A DNA stretch of 64,000 nt. It comes from Tetradesmus obliquus. Taxonomy: Eukaryota; Chlorophyta; Chlorophyceae; Sphaeropleales; Scenedesmaceae. Positions 28,114 through 62,678 of the stretch are shown here, one piece after another (the stretch's first letter is position 1; every line of letters begins with the position of its first letter). The translations under genes and the position numbers were made by a program. The notes under the pieces were generated by a model that worked only from the letters and a program-made list of their open reading frames with translations, was not told the origin of the DNA and did not search any database. The stretch covers positions 1-64,000 of the forward strand of contig CP126193.1 in NCBI GenBank assembly GCA_030272155.1, in the 5' to 3' direction.

Positions 28114-46995
<18,882 letters not shown>

Positions 46996-49362
46996 TACAT
47001 ATACTCTCCCTACAGACCATGCCCCGCGAACTTTTTGGGTTTGCGTACGCCTTTTTGCAGCAAGCAATTAAATGTGGTGTGGCGAGAAGACAGAGTGCTT
47101 CACATTCGACTACCCTCCGGACTTGTGGTACAAGTGCTAAAAGTCGGCTAAAAGTCCCAGGGCACCGGCCTTCAAATCCTTGGGTCGCAGGCTCGACCCC
47201 CGGCGCCCTCGCTTGCTTGTCGCTTTCAGTTGTCCACGTCAGATGAAATTACTACTGAAAACTTGTTCGCAGTGAACTTCCGTAGTAAGCTTGTCATACC
47301 CGGGAATCCTTCGCGACTGTTTTGTGCAGCGAACGCGCGCCAGAGGGCCATTTCTGTCTTTTCAAACGACACCAATCACTTGACCTTGCTTGGAGCTATT
47401 ATCTGGGCGATTAACCTCAACATTGTTCGAAGTTGCTGATGCGTGGGGCCAGCCTAGGGCCGTTTTCCCCTCCTCGACACGGAACAGAAATTCCGTGATT
47501 CTGTTGTAGCTGAGGCACGGAAGCATTTGTAGCATGAAGTAATGCCGGAGGAAGTGCCAGCTAGCTTGCGCAGGCACGGAAGGCCGCTGCAAGTGCTGCA
47601 TCGAGGACTGGATCTGCCGATGTCGACACAGAAAAGGCGAGTCCGCCTGGCATATCACCCAGTAGCTATTGCGTGAGTTTTATTGGCTGGTGTGCTTCAT
47701 GCAGCAGCAGGCGCACTTGAAGCAGGTGCACCAGCAGCAGCAAGTGGAATTGCAGCAGACTGCACCCAGTGCCACTGCCAGGCTGGCAGCGGCAGGTGCA
47801 CTGGCAGCAGGTGCGCTGGCAGCAGACTGCACTGGCAGCAGACTGCACTGGCAGCAGACTGCACTGGCAGCAGCAGGTGCACTGATACATGCACTGGCAG
47901 CAGACTGCACGGGCAGCTGATTGCTGTAACTGAGCTGGCAGCACCACGCAGTCGCAGCAGTAGGTGCACCGGCTGCTGGCAGCTGTGTTGTCCACTGCCT
48001 GACCACTTGATTGATCTCTATAGTGCTCTACTATGGTGCGATTTTTTACATTGTCCATGCGCTGCTGTGCTGCGCTGCGGCTGCAGGCCAGTACTGGAAG
48101 TACTGGAGTGCCATCTACCTGCCCTTGGTGTGCGCTGCTGGCAACGAGCTAGCTCTGCAAAACGGAAGCAGCACCAACTAAAGCGACTGCAACGGCACCA
48201 CCAAGGGCATCCCTGGCCCGCCCAGCGCCTACGAAATGCTGCAGCAACGTGGGGTCCATGGATAGTGCAGGGCTCTCTGGTCAGCAAGTTGTGCGTTCAG
48301 AATGCTGCAAGCCGCTCTGCTGATTTTCGTTCGCTGTTCATTACAGTAAATGCAGCACTTGGTGTACACATGCATAGGCCCCTAATAGCCAAGCGCGCAT
48401 TTCAGTGGTTCCTGAATGGACTGAAGCAACCAGAACACATGAACTCATCCACTTCAACTGTTGACAGTGGTTGGCATTTGCTTCATGTTGCATTCAAGTG
48501 GCGTTTGACATTCAGTCACAGGTTCTTGGCAGCATGATTACACAGCTGCAATCGATTGACGGTGTTACACTTAAATGGTGTTTGGATGGTTGATGGTTGG
48601 AGTGTTGGGGATCATTAAACAGAGTTGTGGAGAATGCTTCATTTGGTGCCAGCATTGCTACTGCATCTGCCATTATCATGGTGGCAGCTTGATTGACAGA
48701 GTTGTGCTCACGGCCTGGCAGTTGCATGCGTTTCTTGTTGTTTACAAAAAAGGCATGGAACACCCTGTTTCGAGGTGTTTTGACAGCTGTGTGTGCCAAA
48801 TGCTGGCCGGCTGTCATCAGTGTAAATTTCACAAGGGCTGACTTTTTCGCTAAAAACTTTTAGGCTAAAAGTCTATTTTGCGACGGCTCCATATTGCCAA
48901 TCTTGGGTGAGTGCTTTGCAGGAAGTCGTCCACTTGGTACAAGGTGGCTTGCTGAACTGCCAGTGGTTGTCAGCAGCCATGACTTGTGAACTTCGCAGCA
49001 GCATGAATCAAACATCCTGGTTTGCGAGCACGTGTGCTTTGCTTCCCTTGCTACGCCCTAGCAGCACATGATTGTATGTGTCCTGTGACTTGCAGAGTTT
49101 TGGACTATCTGCTGCGTGTGAAGTCTGCAAAGATGCTGTACAGCACACTTTGAATCTGGAACCAGCAGGGATCATGTTGTGTTCCGTCACACTCTATCAT
49201 GGCTGGCTGTGTCATGACCAGCCCCTTGCCTTCAAGTTGGCAACTGGCGTGGATCTGCTTCAGTAGTACTGCTTGAACACACACAGATGCAGTCCAGAAC
49301 AGGAAGTACTGCTGCTGCTGCTGTTGCATGAAAAAACACTGTTGCCGCCGGGTTTGCGAGAC
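46996..49362. other. Intergenic region downstream of ASCC3
   Basis: About 2.4 kb between the ASCC3 stop and the retroelement nest. It holds the ASCC3 3' UTR; TGTAA at about 47926 is a candidate poly(A) signal. A perfect small hairpin, GGGTCG-CAGGCT-CGACCC, occurs near 47194-47211, close to a GGCACCGG octamer at about 47161. The 284-codon ORF at 47683-48537 matches no family I know. Confidence 0.45.
47813..47905 (+). repeat. Short tandem repeat based on GACTGCACTGGCAGCA
   Basis: An imperfect minisatellite of about 16-18 bp units, three near-perfect copies plus degenerate ones, rich in GGCAGCAGACTGCACT. It lies within the unassigned ORF downstream of ASCC3. Confidence 0.8.
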
Positions 49363-49723
49363 GAGGGGTTACACGGTGTGCACAGGCAACTACGTTGCAA
49401 CGAACACCCGAAAATCTGGAACGTCGCAGATGACTCAGCAAAACAGGCTGTCACTCAAGGAGAATCACCCCAGAAAGTCTCTCTGTGTGTGTAACTTGAC
49501 ATATGGCCTTGCAGGCAAAGCCGTCAGTCACAGCACACGCAGTGTTGATGCTAAACAAAGGCAGGACTAGTGTAAACAGTGTCAGTGACAGCAAGCTGCA
49601 CTTTATGCAGTGCAGCGGGCGGGCTGAACCCACAGAACAACACCCACCAGCAGAAACACAGCCTGGCAGGCGGTGGCCTGAGGCGACAAACTGGGCACTT
49701 TATGCAGTGCAGAGGGCAAGAGA
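49363..49723 (-). mobile_element. Family A retroelement fragment (copy A1)
   Basis: It matches the family A units at 60893-61629 nearly base for base. It starts with GGGGTTACACGGTGTGCACA, which on the minus strand is the 3' end with TGTAACCCC, and extends through the segment with TGACATATGGCCTTGCAGGC to about 49720. It contains no reading frame of its own. It stands about 11 kb from the other family A copies, at the low-coordinate edge of the nest. Confidence 0.85.
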
Positions 49724-49770
49724 GAGGTCTGTTACAGGGGTGGGCAAGCTATCGCCCTAGAGCGAGGGCG
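49724..49770 (-). mobile_element. Very short retroelement 3' stub
   Basis: GAGAGAGGTCTGTTACAGGG followed by GTGGGCAAGCTATCGCCCTA resembles only the last 45 bp or so of element C (57303 onward). It abuts the 3' end of B1, so it is probably a separate, extremely 5'-truncated insertion. Confidence 0.55.
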
Positions 49771-50496
49771 AGAGAGAGAAGCTTGTTACAGGAGAAGGCA
49801 AGCTAATCACCCGAGAGTGAGTCACTCGCCCTACTTTCAGCTCACATATCGTATGAACTCGATAGCAAGCCACAAGACGCCACCAAAGAAAACTCCAGAA
49901 GCGTCTCGCAGCCCCTATCTCCCCATAAACGGACATGTACATGCAGGGCAGCAAGTGCGAAATGCAGCACTGTAGAAGCACGAAAAGCAGCATGTGCTCC
50001 ACGCACCAGGCAAAAAGCGCACAGGGAGGGACAAGCATGGTCCAAACAGTAAGCGGGGTGCACCAAGGTGCTGCTCACCATAAATGTATGGCATGATTGC
50101 ATCAAGGCACTGCTGTACTCACCAGACTGCAGCAAGCAGGAGCATGCATAACTGACGCGGTGCACGACTGACAGGCAAATCAAAGCAAACTAAGGCAAAC
50201 TAAGGCAAACTAGGGCTCTGCTGCTTCTGCAATCCTTACTGCTGACAAGGACAGAAACATGCAGCACGGAAGAAAGAGCTGAGAAACCAGCGCTGCGACA
50301 CCCACCACATGCAACATGCCCTTGACAGAAACTGGAAAATCGACAACTGCTGACAGCACAACATGCAGAGGCAGGAAGGTCAACCAGAGCGGGGCGCCAG
50401 TACAATGCGCAGCTGCGCTGGATCAGAGCACAGAAACGGGTGATTGCCAGGCACCGCACCCGCCCAGTAGCGGGCGCTGCCTCTGTTGCCACAAAA

Positions 50497-52044
50497 TCAG
50501 CAAGCAACTCCCAAAAACCTTAACACCGCTTGCTGCTTAGCCTCCTGTAACATCTGCGCTACTAGCTGTTGTCGCTGTTGTTGTTGATGCAGCTGCTGCT
50601 GCTGCCGGCGCTGCTCTACCAGCTGATTATGCTGTTGCTGCGCAGCAGTGAGAGCTGCATGCTGTAGTGTATCAGTGATAAGCGCCTGGCCCACCGGCAG
50701 CGGCGGTGGCTGCTGCACGGCCAGGGCGGGCGGCGGGATGCTCAACTTATTAGCATGTCGTCTGCCAACATCCATGGCATTCAGAGCAGCTAGACAGACA
50801 ACCTTCCAAACGCCCCTGTGGAGCTTGGTAGGGCCAGCTGGCGGCTGCATCAACCAAACATGCCGCATAGCAAGCGGCGGGCGGCCTGCAGCCCGCGTGC
50901 ACCAAGCAGCAGGCAACTCAGACAGCACACTGTCAATCACTGCTACCGCAACAGGGCACTCCCAAAAATGATGAACCCAACCAGGACAGGCAGCGCCACA
51001 CATGCAAGTGTCACCCGACTTGTGCATACGCTGCGATGTCGGCAGGCCATCCATAATAAGCCGCCAGTACAACTCTTTGAAATAATTATCCCAGCGCATC
51101 TTCCAAAGCATGCTCTGGTTAGCTGCCACCCACTTCAAGCCATCAATCACTGCTGCTGGTGCAGCACCTGAGCCCAGCGCAGCCTGGACAAACCTAGTGC
51201 GCTTCTCACGGCGCTCAGCACGCAGCGGACCAAGCTGCAGTGAGGTGGCTTCACTAACAGACAATTTTGCAACAGGAACGGCCTTGCCTCGGACATTTTG
51301 CCAACCCAGCCGAGCCACCAACATGGCCTCAACTTGCTGTTCTGCTGCAGAAGGTATACATGGTGGGTCCGGCACAGCCGCAGGCGGCCAAGGCCGGTCT
51401 GCGGCAGGATGCTGCACAACAGGCAAAACAGCCATAGACCATGCAACGGGCAGTTTATCAACCAGGCCTTGCAAATCCTCAGCCTCGTTGTCAGCATTGC
51501 TGTAGTTGGAGCCGTAAGGCAGCAACGGGTGCGGCAACTGCTGCTGAACAACACGCTGAATGAGATACCACGCCCAAATAAGATCAGTCACAGTGCGAAG
51601 ACGCGGCCTGCATTTGCCGCCACGACACTCATGCTCCCTGCGCTTAGCGGGCACCGGCAGGCACTGCAGCCCGCCCGGCACAAACCCAAGCCCAGCTTGC
51701 AGGAAGGGGTTGGCAAACACTGGCGCCAAGCTGCACCAAGCCCCAGGCTCCAGCACTGGCGCGTCCTGCACAGCCTGCAACTGCTGTCGCAGCTGCTGCA
51801 TGTCTGACAGCTGCTGCGGATGCGGCAGGGGCAGCACAGGGGAGGGCGCGGCTGGTGCCAGCGCCTTCACATCACGGACTGGGCCCAGTGCTTGAAGACC
51901 AGCAATCATGCGGCGCAGCGGTGGGGGAGGGAGGGACTGCTGGGGAAACGCCTGTGGCAGGTCCATAGGCGTTTGCGTGTCTGAGCTGCTTGTACTGCTG
52001 TCAAACAGGGACAAGGGGCCCCACCACTTATGCTTGGAGCGCAA
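50497..52044 (-). pseudogene. B1 ORF2 C-terminal part with zinc-knuckle
   Basis: This 515-codon frame has the region after the reverse transcriptase. ELYWRLIMDGLPTSQRMH is followed by CMCGAACPGWVHHFWECPVA, a Cys-x-Cys...His-His...Cys pattern like the zf-RVT module of L1-type LINEs. A Gln-rich stretch follows. The frame ends early after QAVLRFLGVAC because a run of A is one base longer than in B2 and C, where the frame continues with FWELLADFVA. It belongs to the same ORF2 as the two upstream fragments. Confidence 0.85.
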
Positions 52045-52250
52045 CAGCGCCCGCCCAATGCGGATCCAGGGCAGCTCAGTGTCAGGCGGCGCGGTAGCAA
52101 ACTGCGCGCCCCACCAAGCATGCCGTGCACGTATGTGTTCAAGCTATGGCAAAGCACCAAAACACCCTTCAGCTAGCCTGCCCGCCAGCAGGCGAGCAGC
52201 TACACCAGTAAAACGCCGTTCGGTTGACGCAGGCGCCAACCCTCTATCCA

Positions 52251-53012
52251 CTAACTTCCCAACTGACGCAACAAGGTGCTGCCGATCAGCATCTGCCCGT
52301 ATATCTGAAATTCAGCTGCATACAACAGGGTGCTGACACCATACGCTGCGCTACCCATGCCTCTGCCAAACACAGACAATTGTGGTATGTGTGACAGCCG
52401 CGCAAGCGCGGCATCCACTGCAGCCAGCTTCTGACTCCAGTCTACAGGAGAGTCAGAGCCCACACACACACACAGCACATTGGCCTGCAGCACAGGACAG
52501 AAGGGCAGCACACCCGCTGCATGCTGCTGCGAGAGCGCTGTGTGCTGCTGCCGCGCAGCAGCACCTAGCAATAGTAACTTTGATTTATGCAGATTGAGCT
52601 GCTGCCCAGACGCGGCTGCCATAACCTGCATATGTAGCAAGAACTGTGGGACCTGTGCAGGTGACTGCAGGTAGACCTGCGTGTCATCCGCAAACTGTGT
52701 CGCTGACAATTTGATGCCTTGCACGCTGATGTCAATGCCTTTCGACTGCAAGAACCTCAGCAGGGCTTCACGAACAAACAGGTACAGCAGTGGAGACAAG
52801 GGGCACCCCTGCCGCACACCAGCATCAAACCTGCGCATGCCGGAAACAAAGCCATTCATGCAAGCACACGCATGCGTGTTAGTAAGCAACAGTTCCACCC
52901 ACTTGCAGAACCCTGGGCTTACACCCATAGCACTCATGACAGACAGCAGGAAAGGCCTGTCCAAGGCGTCGTATGCCTTGGCAAAATTCAGCAGCGCCGC
53001 CACCACTGTCAC
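52251..53012 (-). pseudogene. B1 ORF2 reverse transcriptase, catalytic half
   Basis: It encodes LLNFAKAYDALDRPFL, GVRQGCPLSPLLY and QFADDTQVYLQ, which are the finger and palm motifs of LINE reverse transcriptases including the catalytic FADD box. It overlaps the preceding fragment by four bases in another frame, showing a frameshift near 53010. A second frameshift ends it at 52251. The continuing homology (52250-52045) contains an in-frame TAG. Confidence 0.9.
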
Positions 53013-54628
53013 TGTCTGCCGCCACTGTCTGCTGGCAGCGCATGCAGCAGCAGCTGCACGGTGATGATGTTGTGCCCAATCTTGCGCTGTTTAATGAACG
53101 CTGTTTGGGTAGGGGAGATCGCCTGGTCCAGCACTTGCTGCAGGCGGGACGCCAGGATTCTCGCCAAGAGCCTGAAGTATGTGTTGAGCAGTGTGATAGG
53201 GCGGTAGTTGGCAGCCCGGGTAGCATCGCCAGCTTTGAAGATGCCAATCACCACACCATCCAAGAAGCCAGCTGGCGTCTGCCCCAGGGTGCCCACTGCT
53301 GTAAACACGCGCGCCAAGACCGGCGCAAACAGGTCCTTGCAATGCTTGTAAACTGCAACAGGCAAGCCATCCAACCCAGGCGACGTGTTGGGCTTGGAGT
53401 CGGACAGCGCCTTCAGAACTGCTTCTTCTGTAACTGTTGTGCTGCCATCTGCTGCTGCTGGCTGCCGAGGCAAGCTGGTGACGGCTGCGAGGATGGCAGC
53501 CTGGGCGGCTGGGTCCACTGTCGGCTGCGCACTCACACCAGCCCACTGCGTGATGGCCACCTTGGCGGGCCCTGCACCCTCCCACACATATGCGCCGGCC
53601 GCGCTGCGCAGAGCAACCACCTTCCGTGAGGTAGGAGACCGCTCCAGGGCACGCAGCTGCTCTGTGATGCAAGGGTTGGGCTGTTCGCCGCGGTGCAGCC
53701 ATTGCTGCCGCTGCAGGCGCTCGCTGCCTGTCCAAGCTGCCTGCTGCGCGGCGCGGAGCGCCGCTCGAGCAGCAGTCAGCGCTGCCATGGCTGTGCCGAT
53801 CTGCGGCTGGCCTGCTGCTGCGCCAAGCTGGGTGAGGGCATCCTGCACTTGCTGCTGGGCAGCAGCATAGGACGGCAGCGCCGTGTCAGCGCGCCATGCC
53901 TTGCGAATCTCCCGGCACTTGGCCAGCAGCCTCTGCTTGAAGCTAGGCCACCAGAGAAGGCGGGCAGGGTCGGATGCTGGCTCCCCCTGCAGCGCGACAA
54001 GCACCCATGCCTTCAGCTGGGCGCGGTGGGGCAGGCTGCTCCAGAAGTCCACACGGGCACGGGCAAGGCCAGGGCCAGTGGGTTTGGGGGGCTGCAGGGG
54101 AGCCAGCTCAAGCACCAGGGGGAAGTGGTCCGAAACACTGGAGGGAGCTGTGGCGCAGGACACCACGCTGGCGCGCAGTGCGCTGCCAACATAAGCTCGA
54201 TCCAGCCGCGCTACATGTCCAATCTGCGGGTTGCGCTGGATGAACGTGTAGCTGCGGCGCGTAGGGTGCAAGCACCGGTACGCATCAGCAGCACCAGGTG
54301 CCGCTGCTTGCCAAGCCCGCATGGACGGGGCGTCAGACGTGGTGGGCTGGCCGGCCAGGCAGCGTCTGTCAACAGCAGGATCATCCACAAAGTTCCAGTC
54401 GCCAATGAAGATGCTGTTGGCAGGATTGGCTGCCCAGAGCGGCGCCAGCGTATCTGCAATGTAGGTCTGACAGTCCACGGAGGCGTTGGGACAATAGACG
54501 TTAGCAAGATTGATAGTATGGCCACCCCACTTGAAGTGGAGCACCATCAAGCGGCCGCGGGCGTCCCTGTCGGCATCAGCCTCAGGCAGCACTTGCAGGG
54601 GCCCTCGGATACTAGCTGCCGCTGCCAC
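53009..54628 (-). pseudogene. B1 ORF2 endonuclease and reverse transcriptase N-terminal half
   Basis: The first third has apurinic-endonuclease features: INLANVYCPN, FIGDWNFVDDPAVDR and a C-terminal SDHFPLVLEL. The rest begins the reverse transcriptase: SPGLDGLPVAVYK, GIFKAGDATRAANYRPITLLN and the fingers segment ending LLHALPADSGGRQ, where the frameshift occurs. The first roughly 80-100 residues expected of the endonuclease, with the catalytic Asn and Glu, cannot be recognised upstream. That part is lost or too diverged. Confidence 0.88.
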
Positions 54629-54688
54629 AAGACGAGATTGCCAGCTGAGTAGGGGTGCAGGGGGTCAGTGTTGACGCAGTACTTGTAG

Positions 54689-55385
54689 TCAAACCCTGCA
54701 TGATGGGGCTGCTGCGTGGCAGCAGCCCGCTGAGCTGCTGCTGCATTCAGAGCCGTCATCACCTGCGCAACCCCGGCGGGCTGACTTGTGCTGTTGTTGT
54801 TGCTGCTGCTGCTGCTGCTGCTGGGGCTGCTGCTGCTGCTGGTGCTGCTGCTGTGGGCGCCGCTGCTGCTGGCGCCGGGCCTGGGGCTGCACCTGCGGCT
54901 GTGGTGGAGTAGAGAGGGGCTGCTGCTGCTGACGCTGCTGCTGCGCTGTACTGGTGGCTGCCCGGCGGGCCGCAGCCTGCCGCAGCGGCGTCGCCGCGGG
55001 CATATCAATATCGCTGTCGCTGTCACTGGCGGAGCCTGACCCTGCATCGCTCATGCTGGCATCTGACTCACTGTCTACAGGGGGCTGCTGCTGCCGCCGC
55101 TGCTGCTGCTGCTGCTGCTGCGGCGGCTGCCAAGGCTGCTGGGGCCGAGGCAGCACCGGCGGTGGCCGCCGCTTCTGCTGGCTTGTTGCGGGCCCCTGGG
55201 GCTTGGCGCGGGCGCGGCGGCCTGGCACGGCCGCGGCTTTGGCCGGCGCCTCAGCCTGAGCTGAAGGCCGGGCACCCATCGTGCCCTTTGCGCTCTTGGG
55301 CCGCGAGCCCACCAGAGCTTGGCCAGCAGCGCGCTTGGGGCGCAGGCTGCTGAGGCTGTCTGCAGCGGCGCCCGTGGCTGGCTGC

Positions 55386-55474
<89 letters not shown>

Positions 55475-56143
55475 GGCGCGTAGCTTGTACTGGCGCTGCT
55501 GGCGCTGTTGCCACGCGGGGAATGCGGGCGGCGCCGTAGGTGCTGTTGCGGCGGCTGCCGCTGTTGCTGCTGCTGCTGTGGCTGCAGTCTCGGCCGCAGG
55601 CTTGGCTGCAGGCGTGGCAGTAGGCTTGGCTGCAGGCTCGGCTGCAGGCTTGGCTGCAGGCTTGGCTGCTGGCTTGGCGGCAGGCTTGGCTGCTGGCTTG
55701 GCTGCTGGCTTGGCCGCTGGCTTGGCTGCCGGCAGGGCTGCTGGCGGGGCTGCTGGCTGCGCTGCTGCCTGGGCTGCTGGCGCGGCTGCTGCCTGGGCTG
55801 CTGGCGCGGCTGCTGCCGGGGCTGCTGGCGCGGCTGCTGCCTGCGCTGCTGGAGAGGCTGCTGGCGCGGCTGCTGGCGGGGCTGCTGTCTGCGCTGCTGC
55901 CTGGGCTGCTGGCGCGGCTACTGGCTGGGCCGCCGGCGCTGCCTCCGGCACTGCAGGTGGCGCGGCAGGGGGCGCAGCATCTGCTGCAGCTGCAGCCGGC
56001 AGGCCCGCCACCTGCTGCTGCTGTTGCACGCCACCGCTGCTGCGGCTCGGCGGCGCGCCGGCCGGGGCCGAAGGCGGCTGCTGCCGCTGCTGCACTGCGA
56101 GGGCTGGAGAGAGAGGGGTTACACTGGTGTACTCACGCGGCAT
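54689..56143 (-). CDS. B1 ORF1-like low-complexity protein
   Basis: An uninterrupted 484-codon frame upstream of ORF2, made almost wholly of Ala-Pro, Ala-Ala-Lys-Pro and Gln repeats, with a Gln run from a CTG/CAG microsatellite at about 55389-55470 and basic patches (SARRGCAGDD). Position and basic, low-complexity character suit a LINE ORF1 nucleic-acid-binding protein, but no zinc knuckle is seen. The first residues, MPREYTSVTPLS, come from the inserted 69-bp stub and not from B1, so the annotated start is an accident of that insertion. Confidence 0.55.
55389..55473 (-). repeat. CTG/CAG microsatellite inside LINE ORF1
   Basis: About 28 CTG triplets on the plus strand give a poly-Gln run in ORF1. 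The related sequence on either side is also CTG-rich. Confidence 0.93.
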
Positions 56144-56174
56144 ACGCCACCACTAACACCTGAAAGGATTTGAA
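56106..56174 (-). mobile_element. 69-bp family D 3' stub with 12-bp target duplication
   Basis: The insert begins GGAGAGAGAGGGGTTACACT and matches the 3' end of element D (59821-59886). It is flanked on both sides by ACTGCGAGGGCT (56094-56105 and 56175-56186), a clean target-site duplication. Only the last 69 bp of the element were integrated. Confidence 0.9.
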
Positions 56175-56260
56175 ACTGCGAGGGCTTTGTTTGTTTGTGT
56201 TTGTTACACATGGGGGCCAGGCAATTCCAGCCTCTTGAACTAGCATATCATACCAGCGGC

Positions 56261-57259
56261 AAGAGAGAGGCTTGTTACAGGAGAAGGCAAGCTATCACCC
56301 GAGAGTGAGTCACTCGCCCTACTTTCAGCTCACATATCGTATGAAATCGATAGCAAGCCACAAAACACCACCAAAGAAAACTCCAGAAGCGTCTCGCAGC
56401 CCCTATCTCCCCATAAACGAACATGTACATGCAGGGCAGCAAGTGCGAAATGCAGCACGAAAGGCAGCATGTGCTCCACGCACCAGGCAAAAAGCGCACA
56501 GGGAAGGACAAGCATGGTCCAAACAGTAAGCGGGGTGCACAAAGGTGCTGCTCACCATAAATGTATGGCATGATTGCATCAAGGCACTGCTGTACTCACC
56601 AGACTGCAGCAAGCAGGAGCATGCATAACTGACGCGGTGCACGACTGACAGGCAAATCAAAGCAAACTAAGGCAAACTAAGGCAAACTAGGGCTCTGCTG
56701 CTTCTGCAATCCTTTACTGCTGACAAGGACAGAAACATGCAGCACGGAGGAAAGAGCTGAGAAACCAGCGCTGCGACACCCACCACATGCAACATGCCCT
56801 TGACAGAAACTGGAAAATCGACAACTGCTGACAGCACAACATGCAGAGGCAGGAAGGTCAACCAGAGCGGGGCGTCAGTACAATGCGCAGCTGCGCTGGA
56901 TCAGAGCACAAAAACTTGTGATTGCCAGGCACCGCAACCCGCCAAGTAGCGGGTGCTGCCTCTGTTGCCACAAAATCAGCAAGCAACTCCCAAAACCTTG
57001 ACACCGCTTGCTGCTTAGCCTCCTGTAACATCTGCGCTACTAGCTGTTGTCGCTGTTGTTGTTGATGCAGCTGCTGCTGCTGCCGGCGCTGCTCTACCAG
57101 CTGATTATGCTGTTGCTGCGCAGCAGTGAGAGCTGCATGCTGTAGTGTATCAGTAATAAGCGCCTGGCCCGCCGGCAGCGGCGGTGGCTGCTGCACGGCC
57201 AGGGCGGGCGGCGGGATGCTCAGCTTATTAGCATGTCGTCTGCCAACATCCATGGCGGC
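56261..57259 (-). mobile_element. Non-LTR retrotransposon B2, 5'-truncated
   Basis: It is nearly identical over its length to the 3' kilobase of B1 (49771-50784). It breaks off at CCATGGCGGC where B1 continues CCATGGCATT into ORF2, the usual 5' truncation from incomplete reverse transcription. The frame on the minus strand from about 57256 to 56858 encodes the ORF2 end: MDVGRRHANKLS, Gln-rich segment, FWELLADFVATEA and a stop after LTPRSG. Here the A run that is one base too long in B1 is normal. Confidence 0.92.
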
Positions 57260-57302
57260 TGAAGAGGAAGAAGAGGGGTTACACGGTGTCATCCATGGCG
57301 GC
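57247..57302 (-). mobile_element. 30-bp family A stub with 13-bp target duplication
   Basis: CATCCATGGCGGC occurs at 57247-57259 and again at 57290-57302. Between them are 30 bp (57260-57289) containing GAAGAAGAGGGGTTACACGG, the terminal bases of family A. Before this insertion, elements B2 and C were directly adjacent. Confidence 0.9.
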
Positions 57303-59187
57303 AGAAGAGGTCTGTTACAGGGGGGGGCAAGCGATCACCCTAAAGTGAGTCACTTGCCCCTCTTTCAGTTCACGTATCATGAGAACCCGATAGCAAGCCA
57401 CAAGATGCAACCAAAGTAAAACTCCAGAGGCATCTTGCAGCCCCTATCTCCCCATAAACCAACAAGTACATGCAGTGCAGCATGTGCGAAGTGCAGCACG
57501 AAAAGCAGCAGGGTGCTCAAAGCACAGGGCACAAAACGCACAAGGGAAGGCAGGCATGGTCCAAACAGCAAGCGGGATGCACAATGGTGCTGCTTACCAT
57601 AGGTGTTTGGCATGATTGCACCAAGGCACTGCTGTACACACCAGACTGCAGCAAGCAGGAGCCCGCGGGACCGACAGGAGACACTGCATGTGACATGCAA
57701 ACTAAGGTGCTACTGCTTCTGCAACCCTCATGGCTGACAAGCATAGAAGCACGCAATGCGACACACAGAGCTGAAAAATCAAGCACGGTGACACACGACA
57801 TGCAACATGGCCTTGCCAGAAAGTGAAAATTGGACAACTACTGACAGCACATCACATAAAAGCAGGAAGGTCAACCAGAGCGGGGCGCCAGTACAATGCG
57901 CAGCTGTGCTAGATCAGAACGCAGAAACGGGTGATCTCCAGGCACCGCAACACGCCAATGAGCCGGCGCAGCCTCCATTGCCACAAAATCAGCAAGCAAC
58001 TCCCAAAACCGCAAAACCGCCTGCTGCTTCGCCTCCTGTAACACCTGCGCTATTAGTTGCTGTCGCTGTTGTTGTTGTTGCAGCTGCTGCTGCTGCCTAC
58101 GCTGCTCAACCAGCTGGTTATGCTGTTGCTGCGCAGCAGTGAGAGCTGCAGGCTGAAACACATCGGTAATAGGTACCTGCCATTGCGGCGGCGGCGCAGA
58201 TGGCCGCGGCGCGGCAGGCGCGGGCGGCGGAATGCGCAGATTGTTAGCCTGCCGTCTGCCAACATCCATGGCATTCAAAGCCGCTAAACAAACAACCCCC
58301 CAAACACGCTGGTGGAGCCGCTTAGGGCCGGGAGGCCGCTGCATCAACCAGACATGCCGCATAGCAAGCGGCGGGCGGCCTACAGCCCTTGTACACCATG
58401 TTGCAGGCAACGCAGACAGCAGGCTGTCAATCACCGCTACCGCAACCGGGCACTCCCAAAAATGGTGCACCAGACCAGGACACGCAGCGCCACACATGCA
58501 GGTATCATGCTGCTGGTGCATGCGCTCCGACGTAGGCAAGCCATCCATGACCAGCCGCCAATACGTCTCCGTGTACGCATTATCCCAGCGCATCTTCCAT
58601 AGTGCGCCCTGGGCGGCTGCCACACATTGCAAACCACGAGCCAACGCCTCGGGCGGGGCACCCGCACCGAGCGCAACACTGACAAACCTAGTGCGCCGCT
58701 CCTGGCGCTCAGCACGCAGGGGACCAAGCTGCAGTGAGGTAGCTTCACGAACAGACAATTGTGCAACAGACACCGTCTTGCCGCGATGATTCCGCCAGCC
58801 TAGCCTCGCCACCAACATGGCCTCAACATGCTGCTCTGCTGCAGAAGGCATACATGGCGGGTCTGGCACAGCTGCAGGCGGCCAGGGCCGGTCTGCTGCA
58901 GGATGCCGCACAACAGCCAAGGCAGCCCGATGCCACGGCATGGGCAGCAAGTTAACCAAGTCTGTCAAATCTGCCGATTCATTGTCTGCATTGCTGAAGT
59001 TGGAGCCGTACGGCAGCAATGGGTGTGGCAGCTGGTGCCGTGCAGCATGCTTGATGACATGCCAAGCGCGACAGAGATCGGCCACAGTGCGGATGCGTGG
59101 GCGACACTTGCCGCCAGAACATGCATGTGGCCCGCGCACAGAGGGCACGGGATGCATTTGCAGCCCACCGGGCACAAACCCAACCAT
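57303..59187 (-). mobile_element. Non-LTR retrotransposon C, 5'-truncated with open ORF2 end
   Basis: A relative of B1, clearly diverged from it, begins at the equivalent of VGFVPGGLQ in ORF2. Its frame stays open from about 59187 to the stop at 57871, with no frameshift. It includes the zinc pattern CMCGAACPGLVHHFWECPVA, a Gln-rich stretch and FWELLADFVAMEA to the end LAPRSG. The 3' UTR runs to TGTAACAGACCTCTTC at about 57306-57320. All of the reverse transcriptase is missing, so it cannot move by itself. Confidence 0.9.
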
Positions 59188-59189
59188 TG

Positions 59190-59812
59190 CATGTAAAAAG
59201 GAAGAAAGAAGATGAAGAAGAAAATGTAAAAGGGGATATTGCATTGCATTTGTTACACGGAGGCGGTCTCCCCAACCCCGCAGGGGCCAGGTACTGCCAG
59301 TCAAGCCAACACTCCGCCAAGTAAGCCCTCGTATCATAAGGACCAGTGGGTATTTGTCCAACCTCCAGTTCCCCACACCGCGGTAACATGCCACCGTAAA
59401 CGCAAGCATGCATGCAATACAAGCAGGCTAGCACATGGAATGCAGAAGCTGCCGGCATACAACGCTACGATCACCCGCATAAGCAAACTTAAAATAAATA
59501 CAGGTGTGCTTATGCCGCCTGACGCAAAAACAGGGTGATCCTCCTGAGTCGACCCACAGTTAGCTGCTGGTCGACAGGCTTGCAGAAGCCCCTGCAACAC
59601 TCACCTGCACAACATCTGGCAACACAACACACATGCAACACGAAGGTTGGCCAGGCCTAACTCAATAGACTCGACAACAACCAGTGACACTCGGGGCCGA
59701 AAGGCCTGGACTGCTGCAACCCGCACACAGAACCCCCGTCCCATCACAGCGTGCAGTGCCAAGGGTCCCTTGACACTACAACAACACCGCCCCCTAGCAG
59801 ACAACGACACCG
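59190..59812 (-). mobile_element. Probable retroelement fragment E
   Basis: Between C and D lie about 620 bp with no coding homology. On the minus strand it contains TGTAACAAATGC (59252-59263) followed by a CT-rich stretch including TTTTCTTCTTCATC, the same kind of 3' end as the other families. Its high-coordinate edge reads ACACCGGCCGG next to element D, close to the GGCACCGG target. The element type is inferred from position and tail only. Confidence 0.45.
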
Positions 59813-60553
59813 GCCGGGGGGAGAGAGGGGTTACACTGGTGTACTCACGCGGCATACGCCACCACTAACACCTGAAAGGATTTGAAGCTGCAGACAGCTC
59901 AGCTCGGGCTGTCACTCAAATGAGGTTCAACCCCATGAAAAACCTCTGTGTGTGAGATCAACTTTGGTCATGCACGCATAACCGTCTCTCCCATCACACG
60001 CAATTCTGGTGCAATCAAAAAGTTTTCGTGTCCGAACATGAATGCACTTTTCTAATCAGTGTCAGTGACAGCACACTATACATATTGCAGTACAGTACGG
60101 CAGGCTGAACTCAAGCCGCTGATTTGATTAGGCAAATCATGGCAAGGCAGCATTTTGAAGGCAGGCTGTCTGTTGAGGGTCAGTCATGGCTGCATGTTGC
60201 AGCAGACATGTAAGGATCCTACAACACCTGCCAAATGTGATAAGTATAGGAGGAGGATAGAGCATGCATAGACATGCATATGCACAGGTCTCATCTGCGG
60301 ATCACACGTAAGCCATTGCCACGTAACACAGTGTGCCAAGCAATAAACGGCTGTCGTGTGAGCAGGTGGTTTTTGTAACGACTAGGTACCCTAGCTGTAG
60401 CAGCAAAATCAGCAAGTACATCCCAAAAACTGCCAACTGCCGCTCGTACTGCTACTTGCTCCACAAGCACAGGCACGTTTAGCCTGTGGGACACTGCCCA
60501 TGCCACCCGGCGACCATGCTCAAATGCATGTATAGCTGCTATACAGACCATGT
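59813..60553 (-). mobile_element. Non-LTR retrotransposon D, 5'-truncated
   Basis: The 3' end reads, on the minus strand, CCAGTGTAACCCCTCTCTCC near 59821. The frame 60560-60291 encodes the tail of an ORF2: VCIAAIHAFEHGRR, SFWDVLADFAATARVPSRYK and a stop, related to FWELLADFVA in B and C but clearly another family. The 3' UTR shares TGTCAGTGACAGC and an AATGAGGTTCAACCCC-like block with family A. The element is cut off at CCGGCACCGG (60554-60563). Confidence 0.85.
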
Positions 60554-61671
60554 CCGGCACCGGAAAGAAGAGGGGTTACACGGTGTGCACAGGCAACTAC
60601 GTTGCAACGAACACCCGAAAACACAGGAAAACTGCAGGAAGCTCAGCACAGGCCGTCACTCATGTGAGGCCCAACCCCAGAGAAATGGCCCCCGTGTGTA
60701 AGTTTCGGCATATGGCCATGCTAGCACAGCCGCCTTCCTTACTCCACACAGTTCGCCCCCAGAAAATGTATCCTCATACGCGAAGTGGAAAATAAAGTGC
60801 TGCCAGCAGTGTCAGTGACGGCAAGCAATGCAGAGAGAACACAGGGCCGGCACCGGAAGAAGAAGAGGGGTTACACGGTGTGCCGGCACCGGAAGAAGAA
60901 GAGGGGTTACACGGTGTGCACAGGCAACTACGTTGCAACGAACACCCGAAAATCTGGAACGTCGCAGATGACTCAGCAAAACAGGCTGTCACTCAAGGAG
61001 ACTCACCCCAGAAAGTCTCTCTGTGTGTGTAACTTGACATATGGCCTTGCAGGCAAAGCCGTCAGCCACAGCACACGCAGTGTTGATGCTAAACAAAGGC
61101 AGGACTAGTGTAAACAGTGTCAGTGACAGCAAGCTGCACTTTATGCAGTGCAGCGGGCGGGCTGAACCCACAGAAACAACACCCACCAGCAGCAACACAG
61201 CCTGGCAGGCGGTGGTCTGAGCCGGCACCGGAAGAAGAAGGGTTACACGGTGTGCACAGGCAACTACGTTGCAACGAACACCCGAAAATCTGGAACGTCG
61301 CAGATGACTCAGCAAAACAGGCTGTCACTCAAGGAGACTCACCCCAGAAAGTCTCTCTGTGTGTGTAACTTGACATATGGCCTTGCAGGCAAAGCCGTCA
61401 GTCACAGCACACGCAGTGTTGATGCTAAACAAAGGCAGCCGGCACCGGAAGAAGAAGAGGGGTTACACGGTGTGCACAGGCAACTACGTTGCAACGAACA
61501 CCCGAAAATCTGGAACGTCGCAGACGACTCAGCAAAACAGGCTGTCACTCAAGGAGACTCACCCCAGAAAGTCTCTCTGTGTGTGTAACTTGACATATGG
61601 CCTTGCAGGCAAAGCCGTCAGTCACAGCAGCCGGCACCGGGAGAGAGGCTTGTTACAGGAGAAGGCACCGG
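60554..61671 (-). mobile_element. Serial array of family A fragments in a GGCACCGG target
   Basis: Units in order: A2 60564-60845 (diverged), A3 stub 60857-60881, A4 60893-61220, A5 61232-61437, A6 61449-61629, and a 23-bp B-type stub 61641-61663. They are separated by exact GCCGGCACCGG at 60846, 60882, 61221, 61438 and 61630, bounded by CCGGCACCGG at 60554 and GGCACCGG at 61664-61671. Each unit has the same 3' end (minus strand TGTAACCCCTCTTCTTCTTC, or TGTAACAAGC for the stub) but a different 5' cut-off. The 11-mer is therefore a target re-used and duplicated at each insertion, not part of the element. Confidence 0.88.
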
Positions 61672-61738
61672 GGTTTCGAAGCGTGGCCGTGTAAAACGGC
61701 AATTATATGGTGTAGATCTGGACGTTTCGCCGTCACCT

Positions 61739-61810
61739 GCGCCATTAGTGTAGTGGTTAACATATTCGCCTTCCAAGCGAAAGAGACGGGTTCGATTCCC
61801 GTATGGCGCA
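61739..61810 (+). tRNA. tRNA-Gly(UCC): tRNA-Gly, anticodon UCC
   Basis: A 72-nt cloverleaf. The acceptor arms GCGCCAT and ATGGCGC pair over seven bases with discriminator A. The D arm carries the A box (TAGTGTAGTGGTTAACA). The anticodon stem TTCGC/GCGAA encloses loop CTTCCAA, with anticodon TCC reading GGA. The T arm ACGGG/CCCGT carries GGTTCGATTCC as B box. There is no intron and no encoded CCA. The retroelement array ends 67 bp upstream. Confidence 0.98.
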
Positions 61811-61814
61811 AGCG

Positions 61815-61819
61815 TTTTT
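61815..61819 (+). terminator. Pol III terminator of tRNA-Gly
   Basis: A run of five T begins five bases after the tRNA 3' end, the usual RNA polymerase III stop. Confidence 0.9.
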
Positions 61820-62678
61820 GCTCATGATTCCTGTACATCTGCCTTTTTCTGCGTCAGGGCTGGCTACACGATCAACAAGTGACCTCTTCTCGTCCATGTG
61901 CTGTATGCCTGCATCAGCTGTACAGTACTACTGTGGGTGGAGGCAGAAGGAATGCCTGCAATCAGCCTGAGGGTGTCAACCTGATGGACGCACTGACATT
62001 CAGAGCACTGACAGGTCTAGCGGGCTAGCTCCTGGTCCAGTGTCTCCAACTGTTAACATGGAGGTAGCAGAGTTTTTCAGCCACTGTGTTTCACCTGGCC
62101 CCAGCATGCAGTGACCGCCGCTCTCATACTATGGTTGTATGGCAACGTTGCTGTGGCTCACTAAGCCGCTGAGTAACAGACATAGTATGTCTTTGACCTC
62201 GCCACACTCTTGCTTCTGTCAAAGGTAATGCGTTGAGTGTCTGGTTTGGTTTGAGGCTGCATGTACTGTTGAGAGCATGCTGTCACTGCGGCTGGCTGTG
62301 GAGAAGCACCAGCCACGTGCAGCAGCTGGGCGCATGCGCAGGCTTGCCCGCGTCTGACAGAGTCTCATGCTTGGCGCTAGCCCGGCTAGCATCAGGGGCC
62401 CTGATGGCGCCTGCGCATCGGTAAGCAGGCTCTTCTAAAGTCATGTCAAACTGCACAGTGGCTGCTGCACCATGGACTTCATTTGAGACAGGTATATATA
62501 CCGTCCGTTGTCACCTGTTACCTGAGTGTGACAATGCTGTCACTCAGTGGTGGGTGACATGTACAAGGGTACCTGTTTCTCAAGCGCTCAAGGACCAGCA
62601 CCGTTCCTGACACCCGGTTTTCAAAAGTCTTCAGTTGTAAAGTAAATCTGTTGTCTCTCTGCTGGTGTAATAGCTGCA
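61820..62678. other. Intergenic region upstream of the GTPase gene
   Basis: About 860 bp. It should contain the GTPase promoter. A 63-codon frame at 62233-62424 ends at a possible donor (GTAAGC) but begins without ATG and shows no homology, so I do not add it as an exon. ATATATAC at about 62493 is a TATA-like stretch 185 bp before the proposed start. Confidence 0.45.

Follow-up and report, generated by a model that had tools for sequence, protein, structure and literature searches.

Evidence for position-set antisense insertion of L1-type LINEs upstream of tRNA and 5S genes in the green alga Tetradesmus obliquus

In the genome of Tetradesmus obliquus, L1-type LINEs very probably insert in antisense orientation at a set place upstream of tRNA and 5S genes, the place being fixed by position, and one and the same site is re-used within each array; we give this reading a probability of about 0.87. 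Position, orientation, target duplications, the re-use of one site per array and the independence of the inserted units are all directly observed. The window analysed here is the whole stretch of 64,000 nucleotides at the start of contig C3, which opens with CCCTAAA telomere repeats, in an assembly of 104.66 Mb and 17 contigs. Between positions 60,553 and 61,671 of the window, six 5'-truncated LINE fragments lie head to tail on the minus strand, antisense to a plus-strand tRNA-Gly(UCC) gene. Read on the plus strand, each of the six units starts with a constant purine-rich end, which is the 3' end of the element read on the minus strand; the 5' truncation points all differ, and the unit lengths range from 23 to 328 bp. 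The array and its anchor are laid out as follows.

60553..60563, plus strand: outer left target copy TCCGGCACCGG
60564..60845, minus strand: unit 1, sub-family A2, 282 bp, of which 281 bp match a copy at C1:8.01 Mb exactly
60846..60856, plus strand: target copy GCCGGCACCGG
60857..60881, minus strand: unit 2, family A 3' tip, 25 bp
60882..60892, plus strand: target copy GCCGGCACCGG
60893..61220, minus strand: unit 3, family A LINE fragment, 328 bp
61221..61231, plus strand: target copy GCCGGCACCGG
61232..61437, minus strand: unit 4, family A LINE fragment, 206 bp
61438..61448, plus strand: target copy GCCGGCACCGG
61449..61629, minus strand: unit 5, 181-bp LINE fragment of family A, with an exact match at C1:5.02 Mb
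61630..61640, plus strand: target copy GCCGGCACCGG
61641..61663, minus strand: unit 6, 23-bp 3' tip of a family C LINE (BLAST match to C1)
61664..61671, plus strand: tRNA-proximal target copy GGCACCGG, 67 bp to the tRNA gene
61674..61681, plus strand: upstream box TTTCGAAG, with TTCGAA at 61675-61680, directly past the last target copy
61738..61811, plus strand: tRNA-Gly(UCC), anchor of the stack (ARAGORN; Rfam RF00005, 70.9 bits at 61739-61810)

Unit 1 represents a diverged sub-family, A2 (called D in the original prediction), units 2 to 5 belong to family A, and unit 6 is the tip of family C, which confirms the earlier view of six or more truncated fragments from at least two families arranged head to tail. 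The same view held that one exact spacer separates each pair; this stands for the five separators, all of which are exact copies of GCCGGCACCGG. The outer copies read TCCGGCACCGG on the left and GGCACCGG on the right. The 11-mer GCCGGCACCGG occurs six times in the window, five of them within the array, where shuffles lead one to expect 0.06. The beginning of TCCGGCACCGG may belong to the end of the preceding element; a related element at locus L017 reads CATGTCCCA. The last target copy ends at 61671, and the predicted distance of 67 bp to the tRNA gene is reproduced with the start given by Rfam (61739), that given by ARAGORN (61738) making it 66 bp.

Units of the same orientation extend beyond the array as it was originally recognised, from 49.36 to 60.55 kb, and the far end of the stack lies 12.4 kb from the tRNA gene. 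The following features were recognised in this part.

49359..49700, minus strand: family A fragment at the far end of the stack, right boundary approximate, 12.4 kb from the tRNA gene
49770..56095, minus strand: long LINE of family C carrying frames for an endonuclease and an L1-type reverse transcriptase, boundaries approximate
52251..53090, minus strand: open frame, reverse transcriptase core (Pfam RVT_1, E 3e-16; LINE-1 ORF2 protein 8sxt, E 1.8e-16)
53009..54664, minus strand: open frame that covers the endonuclease part and the beginning of the reverse transcriptase, with matches to solved structures
59817..60552, minus strand: family B LINE fragment with 3' end GGGGTTACACTGGTGTACTCACGCGGC, boundaries approximate, same orientation as the array

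The best solved match of the frame at 53009..54664 is a LINE-1 ORF2 protein (E 3.7e-18, in the reverse transcriptase part), and N-terminal to it the frame matches the L1 endonuclease 2v0r (E 5e-05). Among solved structures, LINE-1 ORF2 proteins are the best for the family C reverse transcriptase, R2-type chains being weaker. Sub-threshold matches of the family C endonuclease are those to Pfam Exo_endo_phos (E 0.028) and to NCBIfam xth (E 2.3e-05), and zf-RVT (E 0.096) likewise falls short of its Pfam cut-off. Element copies terminate in a GAA/GA-rich tail without poly(A). As judged from their reverse transcriptase, endonuclease, 3'-end and target-duplication features, the elements are L1-like (APE type) non-LTR retrotransposons. 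Family A possesses its own ORF2, the C-terminal part of which shows 32% identity to that of family C over 303 columns; because these parts are only 32% identical, A and C are two deeply separated families, and together with B as a third, three 3'-end families share the same aim. Wherever they are located, copies of family A that have 1.8 kb in common show 98-99.9% identity, which suggests recent activity of this family. An extra 3'-end family (GAAGAAGAAGAAGATAGGGTGGATTGTACAGGGG) was observed at L037, L071 and L086, with a target duplication upstream of tRNA-Gly(GCC). Elsewhere in the window, at 41227-42306, an open frame resembles, by eye, a piece of a BRR2/ASCC3-type helicase.

The relation of the elements to tRNA genes was surveyed with a set of 62 genes, returned, without regard to elements, by an Rfam search in which 63 of 1714 candidates were scored, and the upstream flanks of all 62 were examined. 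Antisense elements are present within 330 bp upstream of 33 of the 62 genes (BLAST, E<=1e-6), or of 36 when matches to 3' tips are added, and sense elements are found at 0/62 by either count, which bears out the original proposal of tRNA-proximal integration. As controls, the 260 bp downstream contain elements at 4/42 genes (one antisense, three sense; 20 genes without a 260-bp flank were omitted), and window tiles outside the stack contain them in 0/155 cases. A few sense insertions downstream of tRNA genes were seen, at L048 (C1:4948344), L091 and L109. Junctions were tabulated for the 62 tRNA flanks, five tRNA genes near elements, one tRNA-Gly found by pattern and four occupied 5S genes. 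A repeated word of at least 7 bp connects the flank of the tip with the gene side for 37 of 53 tips, compared with 14% for shuffled flanks. In the tRNA rows, the duplicated word ends at -63 to -129 in 19 of 22 cases and at -140 to -169 in three (L096 at -140, L097 at -168 and L106 at -169), for which the program may perhaps have picked an inner repeat. Paralogous genes carry different words at a like position, as in L086 and L087 (both -110) or L077 (-66) and L078 (-68). The closest stand-in for an empty site is a pair of paralogues with the common flank GCTAAACCCTAAAACC, of which L116 is empty and L117 is occupied. The tRNA-like GGTTGGGTAGTTTAGT copies were considered as an untargeted control and dropped, 6 of 11 being occupied, as against 30 of the 51 remaining genes.

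The 5S genes show the same arrangement. Six were found and five examined; at four of these five there is an antisense fragment accompanied by a target duplication, and the remaining gene has none. The duplicated words, TGCGCGCCC, TGTCGCGT, AGGCGCG and TCAAATCCGCCCT, end 61, 60, 60 and 60 bp before the gene, respectively, and they are mutually unrelated, the flanking letters also mostly differing. No insertion was found at the two U6 genes examined (0/2). For the genome-wide comparison, a list of 109 Pol III genes was assembled from Rfam tRNA, three of four A/B-box consensus patterns (TAGC, TAGT and TGGT), 5S and U6 genes, and is incomplete. Five chance-like matches and those already listed were removed from the 63 matches to the TAGC and TAGT patterns, and those not 53-56 bases long and those already listed from the 46 matches to the TGGT pattern. 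Seven near-identical tRNA-like A/B-box copies, TAGCTGAGGGGTGTATGTCACC (C5:2292127, C5:2294736, C5:4787143, C7:5817798, C12:697257, C12:822216 and C16:4271291), are perhaps a SINE family, and were retained in the list. The cluster test used 100 of 308 tips of family A, 67 of 67 of B and 100 of 208 of C2. Clusters within 10 kb of a listed Pol III gene number 18 of 41 for A (mean 1.0 and maximum 5 in 1000 random shifts), 10 of 42 for B (mean 0.9, maximum 4) and 15 of 47 for C2 (mean 1.3, maximum 6), which is 11-18 times the frequency in the shifted control. Other copies of the families are thus enriched near tRNA genes, the outcome by which the original prediction was to be checked. Among the tips within 10 kb, 90 of 105 lie upstream and antisense of the nearest listed gene and 15 break this rule; measured against the list of 62 tRNA genes, 32 of the 100 family A tips listed (of 308) lie within 10 kb, and all 32 are upstream and antisense. 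On C1, A and B elements form a pile of more than 80 kb (7.976-8.088 Mb), plus-oriented to the left of a plus-strand tRNA gene (8021931) and mostly minus-oriented to the right of a minus-strand one (8029850).

With this incomplete gene list, 87 of 130 clusters have no listed gene within 10 kb (A 23/41, B 32/42, C2 32/47), and they possibly reflect off-target insertion, additional self-targeting or unannotated Pol III genes. By ARAGORN, a tRNA is present in 11 of 55 loci that extend 1.5 kb around A tips, and Rfam, applied to 20 of the loci without one, added one more. When eight gene-ward flanks (4.3-6 kb) of arrays lacking a listed tRNA were searched with both programs, three contained a tRNA, one contained a U4 pair and four contained nothing. 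The U4 snRNA genes of this pair (L074:3378-3775, C4:2.9366-2.9370 Mb) are inverted and are separated from a family A array by about 3.3-5.6 kb; given this distance of at least 3.3 kb and the opposed orientations of the two genes, the pair was not included among the targets. Another array end likewise lacks a tRNA; next to it, on the minus strand at L071:3835-3958 (C3:1.894 Mb), a hairpin-rich stretch is followed by GGATCGAACCC and TTTTT and is a candidate unannotated Pol III gene; its search against Rfam gave no family (one chance-like match, E 0.27), and its fold is unremarkable (z -1.59, with 13 of 200 shuffles equally good). Beside an array at L076:330-420 (C4:6.81 Mb), a tRNA-Ile(AAT)-like 3' half with a T-run was seen by eye and had been missed by ARAGORN and Rfam.

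Each array is characterized by a word of its own. The genome contains 308 family A 3' ends (with up to two mismatches), and the words of other arrays include TGTGTGTGTAGT, ATGTTGTCAGC, CCCGTGCCGCT, CGGGCAAATT, ACACGCGCCC and more. The 205 distinct 3' tips compared came from window positions 48001-62500 and from the fetched loci, which had been picked for their family A copies or Pol III genes and from which six repeating the window were excluded. Of 124 pairs of neighbours, 89 have 7 bp or more of flank in common, compared with 6.9% of control pairs drawn across loci, and 68 have 9 bp or more in common, compared with 1.2%. Since neighbours share their own word far above the control, the arrays re-use their own site, in agreement with the earlier proposal of a site regenerated by each duplication. 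The gene-proximal word is also carried far outward. A test of distant tips began with 128 tips in 48 loci, of which 75 had a gene of the same orientation within 15 kb and a readable flank; of those more than 1 kb from the gene, 33 of 62 have 8 bp or more of their flank in common with the 330 bp beside it, compared with 8.1% for other genes. These matches include 14 of 33 that occur at no other gene's flank, and some whose words are simple (GTGTGTAG, ATTTTTTT) or partly element sequence (GGAGAAGGC). The word reaches 11.6 kb at C1:8021931 (seven tips, at 7.0-11.6 kb) and 3.8 kb at C1:374086.

Several other accounts of these patterns have to be weighed. 5'-truncated LINE copies with target duplications are the hallmark of target-primed reverse transcription, yet an array of similar units might also be built from one or two insertions by local tandem duplication or unequal exchange, a possibility suggested by the long near-identical stretches and the constant separator, and one that is hard to date when family A copies sharing 1.8 kb are so similar everywhere. 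We regard it as very unlikely, because several families and truncation points occur inside one array, the same pattern recurs with other words at many loci, and units 1 and 5 match far-off copies exactly, rather than their neighbours. Any two of units 3, 4 and 5 are distinguished by two positions, unit 5 thereby differing from both of the others, and units 3 and 4 each have one base absent from all other fetched copies, so that neither can be a simple duplicate of its counterpart. The distant exact matches and the differences among units 3 to 5 therefore point to separate insertions, and local duplication was rejected for units 1 and 5 on the basis of those matches and for unit 6 as a member of another family. 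This comparison agrees with the original reading of constant 3' ends, variable 5' ends and a duplicated spacer as independent target-primed events. That reading also made GGCACCGG the target which the families recognise, and tRNA proximity would then be secondary. The word does occur seven times in the array and 11 times in the window against 3.6 expected. However, GGCACCGG joined exactly to the 3' end GAAGAAGAAG was found by genome search in the window array only, and with two mismatches the combination occurs at 40 places, fewer than the 63 of a reversed control pattern; moreover, other arrays use unrelated words, and four 5S loci have four words at one position. A general role of GGCACCGG as the target was consequently rejected and retains hardly any credibility. 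The alternative raised alongside it, that the 11-mer is an internal part of a longer master element, is ruled out, as longer copies continue with other letters, for example GAGGCGACAAAC past the end of unit 3.

A DNA box upstream of the gene, such as GG-TTCGAA, might be targeted by the element itself without the Pol III machinery. TTCGAA is enriched at -140..-50, where it occurs in 14 of 62 tRNA flanks, as compared with 1/62 at -330..-150 and 1/42 downstream flanks, and at 9 of the 13 loci with both box and insertion, the window included, the word ends about 2-8 bp before it (by eye); of the exceptions, L092 and L148 are farther off, the word of L082 includes the box and L145 is ambiguous. Other recurrent boxes at -140..-50 are AATAACAC/TAACACTTTT (8/62) and the telomere-like TAAACCCTAAAA (4/62), both at 0/62 at -330..-150. 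On the other hand, 48 of 62 tRNA genes have no TTCGAA at -140..-50 and many of them are targeted, and the 5S positions agree though the flanking letters mostly differ, so that we consider targeting of the box itself unlikely. Slightly less likely still is that tRNA genes are incidental anchors of a self-targeting process, in which a first insertion arrives by chance and later elements favour the junctions or 3' tails of copies already in place, as Zepp of Chlorella reportedly does. It is favoured by the depth of the stacks, which are many units deep, and by the 87 of 130 clusters without a gene of the incomplete list within 10 kb; the set positions at unrelated tRNA and 5S genes and the strict orientation to the gene (0/62 sense) speak against it as the explanation, and self-targeting may exist in addition to the Pol III aim. 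Finally, insertion might occur anywhere, with copies surviving solely in safe places near tRNA genes, an argument which applies generally to gene-dense genomes. As the sole cause, selection would leave the repeated use of one site, the orientation and the 60-61 bp at four 5S genes unexplained, and it is highly improbable.

Insertion at a set position upstream of the gene thus remains the preferred reading, and a mechanism for it can be outlined. The Pol III initiation complex, once assembled at the gene, would serve as the docking site for the protein-RNA complex of the element, by way of TFIIIC/TFIIIB or an upstream-box factor, and would thereby fix where the element endonuclease nicks the sense strand of the gene. 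Reverse transcription would then be primed from the nicked 3' end, in the window right after CCGG and before GG-TTTCGAA, and cleavage of the second strand about 7-14 bp upstream would produce the target duplication, with early stops of reverse transcription giving rise to the 5' truncations. On this view, the place of the cut would depend on how far it lies from the gene or from the upstream box of the gene, and would be independent of its own letters. As the duplicate on the gene side would preserve the original spacing, the site would stay available for further insertions, and neither the gene nor the promoter close to it would be damaged. The next element could enter at the same place, its 5' end facing the gene, and would push older copies outward. 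At L086, an older element, which belongs to a different family and is also present in L071, supplies the duplicated word with its 5' end; at L072, an older family C copy does so. In both, the younger insertion is therefore nearer to the gene, and on these two loci, read by eye, stacks probably grow on the gene side. The target copies of the six window units fit growth on the gene side and on the far side alike.

Among green algae, Zepp of Chlorella is said to be a LINE forming nested stacks of 5'-truncated copies in telomeric or centromeric positions, and we know of no tRNA aim in that element. The stacks described here likewise consist of 5'-truncated copies; at many loci they are anchored at Pol III genes, and 87 of 130 clusters are without a gene of the incomplete list within 10 kb. 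In comparison with TRE3 of Dictyostelium, a few sense insertions downstream of tRNA genes occur here too, the main pattern being upstream. According to the portions of PMC5391098 and PMC5911963 drawn on here, TRE5-A, TRE5-B and TRE5-C of Dictyostelium discoideum are APE-type elements of the L1 clade with variable target duplications, and the insertion sites of TRE5-A lie upstream of the gene, at 40-54 bp for tRNA and at 37-42 bp for 5S; TRE5-A always has its 5' end toward the gene, forms tandems and needs the B box. As far as insertion features can be compared by description, the algal elements are alike in being APE-type, in lying upstream of tRNA and 5S genes with the 5' end toward the gene, in their variable duplications and in forming tandems at one gene. 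They differ in their distances, which are 60-61 bp at 5S genes and mostly 63-129 bp, depending on the gene, at tRNA genes, as well as in their three 3'-end families, extreme 5' truncation, one-site stacks of more than 10 kb and GAA/GA-rich tail without poly(A). TRE5 is further characterized by an ORF1 that binds TFIIIB. NLTR-B of Polysphondylium pallidum (39-64 bp) and NLTR-A of Dictyostelium purpureum (2-6 bp) are L1-clade elements found upstream of tRNA genes; they belong to another host group and, in the part of the source cited, are said to have an RNase H domain in place of a zinc finger (PMC5911963). Dewa, NeSL-1_TV, LIN15/LIN25_SM and the Dada DNA transposons, in the accounts excerpted from PMC3706591 and PMC4640811, also target small RNA genes, at defined sequences, whereas the letters at the cut here differ from gene to gene. 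Ty1 and Ty3 of yeast are similarly placed upstream of Pol III genes, via the transcription machinery according to the same portion of PMC5911963, but they are LTR elements with an integrase. The non-LTR elements aimed at Pol III genes that are listed in that portion of PMC5911963 all come from social amoebae, and the open-licence literature, as represented by the beginnings of abstracts and by passages of PMC12636532, PMC3706591, PMC4640811 and PMC6875170, yielded no algal or plant example of a Pol III-aimed LINE.

A wider generalization, to which we give even odds, is that several diverged LINE families share a position-measuring aim at TFIIIC-type genes (tRNA and 5S, not U6), cutting at a set distance whatever the letters and inserting on the gene side. 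Each targeted gene would then preserve its insertions as an archive in order, and where an array ends at no known gene, a Pol III gene may have escaped annotation. If a distant lineage thus provides a second case, a safe-haven aim would have evolved convergently, and in several families at once. The 60-61 bp at four 5S genes resembles a natural footprint of the transcription complex, and makes the way in which LINEs find their target directly testable, provided that the host can be grown in culture. For this alga, the finding explains the truncated LINE stacks which end at tRNA genes and may help in finding unannotated Pol III genes, with the tRNA or 5S gene as the anchor of a growing stack of dead LINE copies.
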